Shown one piece after another: positions 4,012 to 27,143 of a DNA stretch of 44,438 bases. The stretch's first letter is position 1, and the number at the start of each line of letters is the position of its first letter. The notes beneath the pieces are model-generated. The model was given only the letters and a program-made list of their open reading frames with translations, made no database searches and was not told the DNA's origin. Position numbers and translations under genes: made by a program. Origin of the DNA: Coleofasciculaceae cyanobacterium RL_1_1 (GTDB lineage Bacteria; Cyanobacteriota; Cyanobacteriia; Cyanobacteriales; Geitlerinemataceae); assembly GCA_012033105.1 (NCBI GenBank), contig JAAUPN010000005.1:1-44438 (forward strand), written 5' to 3'.

Positions 4012-4314
4012 TAGGGCAAACGTATACGCTGAATTTTTAGGTTCAAAGTCAGCACAACGTTAGCGAGTGAAAGCCTGAGCGGAGTCGGAGTCTGGTTGTG
4101 TCGGCAAAAAGTGGCCGCACTTTTCCAGAACTGACGCAAAATATCAAAATCCGTAGGGGCGTCATAGCAATGCGACCACGATATCACAGGGTTTCTAGCC
4201 GATCAGTGCGTTAGCCCTATCTCCGCAAGCGAAGGCGACACCAACAACTCCGCCCAGTGTTCAAATCTGCTTGTGCTTGATGGTCATGCTGGACAACGAG
4301 TATGCGTCTGCCCT
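4012..4314. mobile_element. Decayed MITE, copy 1 of the AGGGCAAACGCATAC family
   Basis: Imperfect terminal inverted repeats: AGGGCAAACGTATAC at 4013-4027 and GTATGCGTCTGCCCT at 4300-4314 (13 of 15 pair). The flanks 4001-4011 and 4315-4325 share nine identical central bases (TGGCTCAAC), consistent with an 11-bp target duplication mutated at both edges. Inside, 4153-4176 resembles the 24-base core of the copy at 25279. No transposase frame is present, so it would need a transposase in trans. It lies upstream of the cydA leader. Confidence 0.7.
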
Positions 4315-4439
4315 GTGGCTCAACTTTATATCCCAAATTTTGAGATCGATGAACGGACAAGTTAAACCTTTGAAGACTTTAAATTTACTTTATAGTTATC
4401 AACTAGAGAATCTTCCAAAAATCTGTTAGAACTAAACGC

Positions 4440-24560: not shown

Positions 24561-25187
24561 CTAGCGCTTCATCTTGCGCTTCAACTCATCCAACTCGTCA
24601 TCCATTTCCCAGGAGGCAAACGCCTGTTCTAGCGGATCAGCCGCCTTGGTATAGGATGTATTGCCAGCATCCCAACGATCGTCCGTTGCTGTATAGCCGT
24701 CTGCCTGCGAACTCGATCGCGCTGACGCTGACGACGAAGTGTCCGCCGCTGCCGAAGCACTGGCCTGCTGGGCTTGCAGTTCGGCGGCTTTGGCCTTCAA
24801 TGCCCGACGACGCTCACGAATCTCTGCCTGTAATGTCTTGGTCTGCTCTAGCCGATCGCTCGCGGCCTTCCGCTGCGCCCAAAGCTGATTGCCCTCCCGC
24901 AATAGCGCCGCCTCACGTTCTGCCGCTCCATTCGCTAACTCAGTTTGCCCTGCTTGCCGCGCCTTTGCGACTCGCCCATGCCAAAGCTGAATCTTTTCCG
25001 CCGTCTCCAGAATCTTCGCTTCGAGCTGCTTTTCCTTGAGCTCAAATTCCGTGATCAGCTTGACCGTATCCGCTTCTTGGTCGCGCAACTCATCCTCCAA
25101 CACCTGTAACTCCAGGTGCGGATTGTTTTGTAAAAACTCATCGAGTCGATCTTCGAGAAATTTACTAAAGTCGCCGAATAAGCTCAC
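24561..25187 (-). CDS. TIGR04376 family coiled-coil protein
   Basis: A 208-residue charged cytoplasmic protein. MSLFGDFSKFLEDRLDEFLQNNPHLELQVLEDELRDQEADT at the N-terminus is the recognisable conserved part of TIGR04376, a cyanobacterial family of unknown function. Residues about 35-145 are predicted coiled coil, rich in Glu, Lys, Arg, Gln and Ala, with EREAALLREGNQLWAQ conserved. A low-complexity Ala/Ser segment follows (about 145-160), then an acidic tail DELDELKRKMKR. No membrane segment or enzyme motif. It lies upstream of proS on the same strand. Family membership is from memory of the N-terminal motif. Confidence 0.8.
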   Translation of the reverse strand: MSLFGDFSKFLEDRLDEFLQNNPHLELQVLEDELRDQEADTVKLITEFELKEKQLEAKILETAEKIQLWHGRVAKARQAGQTELANGAAEREAALLREGNQLWAQRKAASDRLEQTKTLQAEIRERRRALKAKAAELQAQQASASAAADTSSSASARSSSQADGYTATDDRWDAGNTSYTKAADPLEQAFASWEMDDELDELKRKMKR

Positions 25188-25278
25188 GGATTTCGCCTCG
25201 ATATAGATCCTAACGATCGCGCGATCATTTTATTTAGTTTAACGATTGCATAAAACGAAACCTCAGGATAAACAGACT

Positions 25279-25493
25279 AGGGCAAACGCATACTCGTCTA
25301 GCTCGATCTGGTGTCGATTGATCGTCGGGCGCATTGCCATGCGCCCCTACGAATAAAAAGGATTAAAGCGAGGATTTTTCGGTTTGAAATGGATAAACAA
25401 TGGTGATTTTGTAGGGGCGCATGGCAATGCGCCCGCGATCTCGTATCGCTTTTATCGATCAATCCATTCGTGGTAGGAGTATGCGTTTGCCCT
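25279..25493. mobile_element. Intact MITE, copy 2 of the AGGGCAAACGCATACTC family
   Basis: 215 bp with perfect 17-bp terminal inverted repeats (AGGGCAAACGCATACTC at 25279-25295, its complement at 25477-25493). The flanks carry a perfect 11-bp direct duplication, GATAAACAGAC, at 25267-25277 and 25494-25504, with one T between the left copy and the repeat. Inside is a second perfect 24-bp inverted repeat (25327-25350 and 25411-25434) that is itself partly palindromic and resembles the GTAGGGGCG repeats dispersed in cyanobacterial genomes. There is no transposase. Perfect ends and duplication argue for a recent insertion. Confidence 0.85.
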
Positions 25494-25638
25494 GATAAAC
25501 AGACCCAGGGAATCAGACCCAGGGAATTAACAGTGATGTCCAAAACATCAAAGGTTTCGCTCCCGCGATCGATCCACCTTCTGACCAGGACGATTGAAGC
25601 CCCAAGATAGCCTCAAGATAGCCTCACGCCCAACCTGG

Positions 25639-26787
25639 CTAAAACTCCTGACCCACTGAAAGATTGCGCGTTTCACCATTGCGCTCGATCGTGGCTCGAT
25701 CTTCCGTCACATCAATCACCACCCAACTGCTATTACCGATCGTCTCACCCACATTCACCCAGCTCGCCGATCCATTCACCTCAAACAGCGCCGCCGGACG
25801 CCCGCCATTCCCTCGATCGAGCGTTCCCACAAGCGCATAACTACTCGCCGCCGCTGCCGGTTCTTTTTGCTCGGCGGTCGGTGCGGGGGCAGAATTCCAG
25901 GAATCGTTGTCATTCATCGGAGGGGCTGGCGGTGGCGGCGCAACCACGGGCGCTGGAACCCGTACCGGAGGCAGGCGATCGGCATTGCTCGGGTTGGGAT
26001 TAGCGCGACTGTTGGCGCTCGCATTGGCAGGGTTCGGATTGCTGCTCGTGTTGTTACTATTAGTTGCGGCTGAGGGGTTGGCGGGCGCGTTTGGCAGCGG
26101 AGCCGGACGTGAGGAGACTCGCTCTAGGGCGCTGGCGATGCGATTGAGCGATCGCAACATGGTTTCGGACGAGGCTGGATCGACGGGAATTGACAGCGTT
26201 GCGGTTGACCCCGCCGTAACTTTCGGCAGCGCATCACCAATCACCGAATTATCTTCATCGTCGGGAATCCGGCCTTCGATGCGATCGAGCGATTGGGTGA
26301 TGTATTCCGCAAATTCTTGCTCACGTAGAGCTTCGGGACTGAGTTCTACCTCAACCTCGGCGGTTGTTGCGGGAGCTGGGGCGGCAGCCTGCATCCAGGG
26401 TGGTAGGTCGCCGCGTTTCATCAGCCACAGCAGGATCGCCGCTAGCGCTGAGGTGGCAAACAGGGCAATCAGAAAGCGATCGAACCAAACCAGGGCGCGA
26501 TCGCGCTTCGGTTGATCAACGTCAATGGTTTTGACCGATGTATCCGGCGTCGAGACGATCGGCTGCATGACGATCGGCGGAATCTGGATCGGTTGCAGCG
26601 ACACAGGTTGATATTGCTCGACCGGTGTATCGAGTGGCGTTTCGGCTAGGTCTAGCCCGCGATCGATATCCTCGAAGACCTCATCCATTAATTTGTCGGC
26701 ATAGGCTTCGACCGCCCAGGGTTGTGGAGTCGAACGACTGGGCGAAGCTTGGATGGCTTGGGGTTGCGATGAAGTTCGATCGGACAT
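25639..26787 (-). CDS. Single-pass envelope protein with GspC/PilP-like C-terminal domain
   Basis: A bitopic protein of 382 residues from the chosen ATG (an in-frame ATG at 26832 would add 15). MSDRTSSQPQ is preferred because the extra residues are of low quality, but no ribosome binding site decides it. The cytoplasmic region (about 95 residues) has QPWAVEAYADKLMDEVFEDIDRGL. One transmembrane helix (DRFLIALFATSALAAILLWLM) follows, then a long Asn/Ser/Ala/Pro linker, then about 65 C-terminal residues (YALVGTLDRG, ALFEVNGSASWVNVGETIGNSSWVVIDV, ATIERNGETRNLSVGQEF) that look like the small beta domain of GspC/PilP proteins of type II secretion and type IV pili. Role in secretion or pilus assembly is inference. 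Confidence 0.7.
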   Translation of the reverse strand: MSDRTSSQPQAIQASPSRSTPQPWAVEAYADKLMDEVFEDIDRGLDLAETPLDTPVEQYQPVSLQPIQIPPIVMQPIVSTPDTSVKTIDVDQPKRDRALVWFDRFLIALFATSALAAILLWLMKRGDLPPWMQAAAPAPATTAEVEVELSPEALREQEFAEYITQSLDRIEGRIPDDEDNSVIGDALPKVTAGSTATLSIPVDPASSETMLRSLNRIASALERVSSRPAPLPNAPANPSAATNSNNTSSNPNPANASANSRANPNPSNADRLPPVRVPAPVVAPPPPAPPMNDNDSWNSAPAPTAEQKEPAAAASSYALVGTLDRGNGGRPAALFEVNGSASWVNVGETIGNSSWVVIDVTEDRATIERNGETRNLSVGQEF

Positions 26788-27143
26788 GGCGATGGCGTTC
26801 GGATAGAGGGAAGCGCAAGAGTCACGGAGCATCGGATCTGGAGCCGAGGAGATGCATCAGGCGCAACAGCAAGTGTGTTGATCTGGGCGATTAAAATCGT
26901 AACCGATCACAGAATTGATTCGACGTGTCATGAGAGTTCACGCCATCAACCTGGGATTATGACACTGAAGATCAGAGCCACGATGTGAGTCCACAGGAGC
27001 CAACGTTATTCAACGCCACGATAGCGCATCGTTAGTTTAATACAGGTTTTTTAGACGGCTTAAATTCTGAGCCACGTTCTTGTTATCGATCGTTCTAACC
27101 CATACTTCACGAACACTTCACGAACACTTCACGAACACTTCCT
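26788..27143. other. Divergent promoter region with triple 11-bp repeat
   Basis: About 355 bases between divergent genes. Nothing coding is visible. The last 40 bases hold three exact tandem copies of ACTTCACGAAC (27104-27136) plus a partial fourth (ACTTC, 27137-27141), ending directly before the ATG at 27144, where a ribosome binding site would be expected. None is seen, so the repeat array occupies the translation start region of the next gene. Confidence 0.6.

Follow-up and report, generated by a model that had tools for sequence, protein, structure and literature searches.

A 217 bp MITE with ISAs1-type ends and an inverted pair of GTAG-tagged REPs in Coleofasciculaceae cyanobacterium RL_1_1

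A 44,438 bp stretch of contig JAAUPN010000005.1 from Coleofasciculaceae cyanobacterium RL_1_1 was analysed as a whole and is referred to as the window. The insert at 25278-25494 of the window is a genuine MITE with ISAs1-type ends and is well preserved. It was very probably mobilized in trans by an ISAs1 transposase with a pair of REPs as passenger. The mechanism itself is nothing new and the element is of an ordinary kind. It does tie an abundant short-repeat family of a cyanobacterial group to a specific transposase family, a link which many cyanobacterial MITEs are without. It also presents one class of small repeats, the REPs, carried and multiplied inside another.

The borders of the 217 bp element were reset by comparison with other copies in the genome. 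The initial annotation had described inverted ends perfect over 17 bp (25279-25295 and 25477-25493). These were confirmed, and alignment of 27 paired copies from this genome extended the terminal repeat to 18 bp with the consensus 5'-CAGGGCAAACGCATACTC. A C precedes nearly every left end and a G follows nearly every right end in this alignment, while the left outermost base of the present copy is T instead of the consensus C. The inner inverted repeat spans 28 nt with 96% complementarity (25326-25353 and 25408-25435) and is perfect over 24 bp as previously noted. Fifteen exact inverted pairs of 15-mers 30-500 nt apart were counted in the window compared to none in 20/20 Markov-1 simulations, so the inverted ends and repeats are not due to chance. 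The element is non-coding and the sole overlapping ORF (81 aa) is attributed to chance.

The 11 bp string GATAAACAGAC occurs at both 25267-25277 and 25494-25504 and had been read as an 11 bp target duplication, a size that was taken to fit IS4-like families. Members of IS4 do produce duplications of about this size. However, the eleventh repeated base is the terminal G of the element itself, and the target site duplication (TSD) is therefore 10 bp (ATAAACAGAC), with 10/10 positions matching at this copy. The G at 25267 matches the terminal G by chance. With the 18 bp borders the flanks matched at 9-10/10 positions at exactly 10 bp in 16 of the 27 paired copies of this genome, and none of the 27 fitted another length between 5 and 14 bp. 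In other genomes the 10 bp duplication was present in 26 of 44 copies (approximate; a few loci overlap). The features are listed in Table 1. The second MITE listed has a different interior, including a GTAGGGGCGTCATAGCAATGCGACC stretch which resembles another dispersed repeat of this genome. A twofold tandem repeat of CAGACCCAGGGAAT at 25500-25527 shares its first bases with the end of the right-hand duplication.

Table 1. Positions in the window of the MITE, its component features and a further MITE of the same TIR family
Feature	Position	Strand	Remarks
TSD, left copy, ATAAACAGAC	25268-25277		Flank match; the preceding G (25267) is coincidental
Left 18 bp TIR, TAGGGCAAACGCATACTC	25278-25295	+	Consensus CAGGGCAAACGCATACTC; outermost C replaced by T
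MITE, 217 bp, non-coding	25278-25494		Copy comparison
GTAG-tagged REP, left, GTAGGGGCGCATGGCAATGCGCCC on the minus strand	25327-25350	-	Tag faces inwards
GTAG-tagged REP, right, identical to left	25411-25434	+	Opposite orientation; 84 bp start-to-start
Right 18 bp TIR, CAGGGCAAACGCATACTC on the minus strand	25477-25494	-	Copy comparison
TSD, right copy, ATAAACAGAC	25495-25504		Flank match
Second MITE, same TIR family	4012-4315		304 bp; TSD TGGCTCAACC/TGGCTCAACT, 9/10

The initial annotation had proposed a genome search with the end sequence. This search (up to 3 mismatches) returned 98 matches in this genome compared to 6 for a reversed control. The element is short and non-coding with 18 bp TIRs, a TSD and multiple dispersed copies, in agreement with the original description of a non-autonomous MITE lacking its own transposase. 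Several mutually unrelated interiors occur between the same ends. Size variants were found with two REPs (217 bp), a single REP (about 130 bp; C396 and C416 in the congener G001) or no REP (85 bp), and these fit loss between repeats. Another subfamily in this genome, which includes L067, L073 and L078, shares these ends, but its interior contains many GCACTGAGCGGAGTCG/CGACTCCGCTCAG inverted repeats; a TTCGCGTAGCGTCTGCGAAGCAGATAG-like palindrome is present in some of its copies and absent from others. Two long candidates in this genome, L110 (1919 bp) and L089 (1851 bp), had poor second ends and no recognizable TSD and were dropped. An Rfam search of the window gave no match, and no description of this element was found in the literature on ISAs1 combined with MITEs. 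Previously described cyanobacterial MITEs (Nezha; Anabaena sp. 90, PMC3542288) are likewise short and gene-less, with TIRs and many mostly intergenic copies; for Nezha the likeness concerns these general features. The Anabaena sp. 90 MITEs were classed as type II and no IS with their ends was present in that genome (PMC3542288). Unlike those MITEs, the present element could be assigned to a parent family through elements in other genomes.

Elements of full length (1213-1222 bp) bounded by identical 18 bp ends were found in other cyanobacteria. Three 1213 bp copies with perfect 10 bp TSDs and an intact ORF are present in G052, which belongs to the same order. Nodosilinea sp. LEGE 06152 contained a 1222 bp copy (L212 365-1586), also with a perfect 10 bp TSD and an intact ORF. 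An uncultured Leptolyngbya (L163) contained a 1214 bp copy with identical ends and an intact ORF, the flanks of which repeat with a one-base shift. The proteins of L163 and L212 (379 and 386 aa) matched NF033564 transpos_ISAs1 with E values of 4e-130 and 3e-131, and also matched DDE_Tnp_1_assoc and DDE_Tnp_1. The G052 transposases were 65% identical to that of L212. ISAs1 elements are characterized by ends of 14-22 bp beginning CAGGG and by a 10 bp duplication (PMC11946415), and the MITE has a TIR of this length and start together with a 10 bp TSD. As intact elements with identical ends encode ISAs1 transposases and the TSD is 10 bp, comparison of the sequences assigns the MITE to ISAs1 as its parent family and not to IS4. 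An IS4-type MITE with an 11 bp duplication has in its favor that GATAAACAGAC is literally present twice, but no copy in this genome gave 11 bp at the consensus borders and this origin is extremely improbable.

The MITE and the 1.22 kb ISAs1-family IS of Nodosilinea sp. LEGE 06152 share the 18 bp ends and the 10 bp duplication. Unlike ISAs1-family ISs, the MITE has no transposase and its interior is unrelated; no similarity between this interior and the transposase gene was detected. It speaks against the ISAs1 reading that the MITE has nothing obvious in common with the known parents beyond approximately 18 bp, so that it did not arise by simple deletion from any of the parents found. Most likely an ISAs1 transposase acting in trans would bind the CAGGGCAAACGCATACTC ends and either cut the element out or copy it. 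Insertion at a 10 bp staggered cut would then account for the ATAAACAGAC at either side. The two head-to-head GTAG-tagged REPs were probably captured once and would then have multiplied with the MITE. Any ISAs1 element named as the driver in this lineage is a putative one.

The parent element is absent from the window, as had been stated. The proposed check for a transposase between the same ends gave a divided result: such genes are present in G052, L212 and L163, while no intact transposase with matching ends was found in the assembled genome (86.6% complete) or in the congeners G001 and G002. The sole ISAs1 gene of the assembled genome is located at C177. Its ends are divergent (CAGGGTAAGCGCAAGAAAA), matching at only 11 of the first 13 bases, and the gene is split by another small nested insertion; this copy was not retained as a candidate driver. 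The nested insertion (L119 1250-1502) is approximately 250 bp in size with ends CTCAGTAC(A/G)GGGACAAAA and a repeated GCCGAGAGCC as an apparent 10 bp duplication. It apparently belongs to a different MITE family.

The insertion had also been described as recent, which the comparisons bear out in part. Identity to the closest copies in this genome is 91% over the full length and 93% for a partial copy, and it is 82-87% for the near-full-length copies of G001. These values indicate that the subfamily did not arise in a fresh burst. The off-consensus left outermost base also tells against a very young copy. The intact TSD and the lack of the insert in the orthologous intergenic region of G002 speak for the opposite view, and on these grounds the insertion most likely arrived after the split from G002. 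That G002 region is short and too diverged for an exact empty site to be seen, and the downstream gene was not found in G001, so the empty-site comparison bears out absence from the G002 interval only.

The MITE lies between two co-directional genes on the minus strand (25639-26832 and 24561-25187). The 397 aa product of one gene matches T2SSC weakly and under the Pfam cut-off, and the 208 aa product of the other has no Pfam match. An effect of the MITE on these neighbors is possible. The MITE strand folds at -103.4 kcal/mol (z -12.4), and roles for REPs in mRNA stability and termination have been hypothesized (PMC3733652). Together with the intergenic position, this would accord with an element kept for its action in RNA, the hairpin terminating or stabilizing transcripts between the two genes. 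However, the fold is strong because the inverted ends and the inverted REP pair fold by construction. A search for intrinsic terminators found no such site inside the element on the minus strand, on which both neighbors are encoded, and the only terminator-like match within it was a 5 bp stem on the plus strand. In addition, G002 has no insert between the same genes. The terminator role suggested earlier for the inner palindrome therefore found little support despite the strong fold, and retention for an RNA function is considered quite unlikely.

The interior of this MITE subfamily contains two identical 24 bp GTAG-class REPs in opposite orientation, 84 bp apart with tags inwards. Each is a palindrome with an unpaired GTAG tag and is dispersed in several copies. 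The 84 bp spacing of the doublet is kept in several copies of this genome and in G001. The REP matched at 21 sites in this genome and 41 sites in G002, with no matches for reversed-pattern controls. For 19 of the 21 REPs in this genome the similarity to the MITE extends past the REP itself, whereas almost all of the 41 REPs of G002 are located outside MITEs. This is most simply explained by a REP that existed before it was captured and that in this genome was multiplied mostly by the MITE. The class of GTAG-tagged REPs has been described, and dimers of GTAG REPs nested in longer palindromes in Anabaena variabilis (PMC3733652) provide a precedent for the nesting. The inner arms of the MITE are GTAG palindromes in an inverted pair, similar to GTAG-tagged REPs and REPINs (PMC3733652, PMC3116915). 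The present pair differs in being contained in a MITE, with which most of its copies in this genome have spread.

Alternatively the inner pair could be an active REPIN which was moved by its own RAYT and landed in the MITE, and not a frozen passenger. The inverted doublet with its 84 bp spacing is as in REPINs (PMC3116915), G002 has many REPs outside MITEs, and a Y1_Tnp ORF of 242 aa is present at C105 of this genome. However, no RAYT gene was found adjacent to the REP pair, no REP was close to the C105 gene or near the three Y1_Tnp matches of this genome, and the only REP on the Y1_Tnp contig of G002 is approximately 28 kb from the Y1_Tnp match. The location of 19/21 REPs in MITE-related sequence points to co-amplification with the MITE, and an active REPIN is unlikely. 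The chances are about even that RAYT spread of the doublet has ended in this lineage and that it now hitchhikes on the ISAs1-driven MITE, multiplied by an unrelated DDE transposase. A separate dispersed repeat with a consensus of approximately AAACTATCGAAACTCGTAGGGGCGTCATGGCAATGCGCCCACGGTATTGCGTGGTTCTAG was found at eleven places in this genome (L307-L317). It is related to the GTAG REP and has its own conserved flanks.
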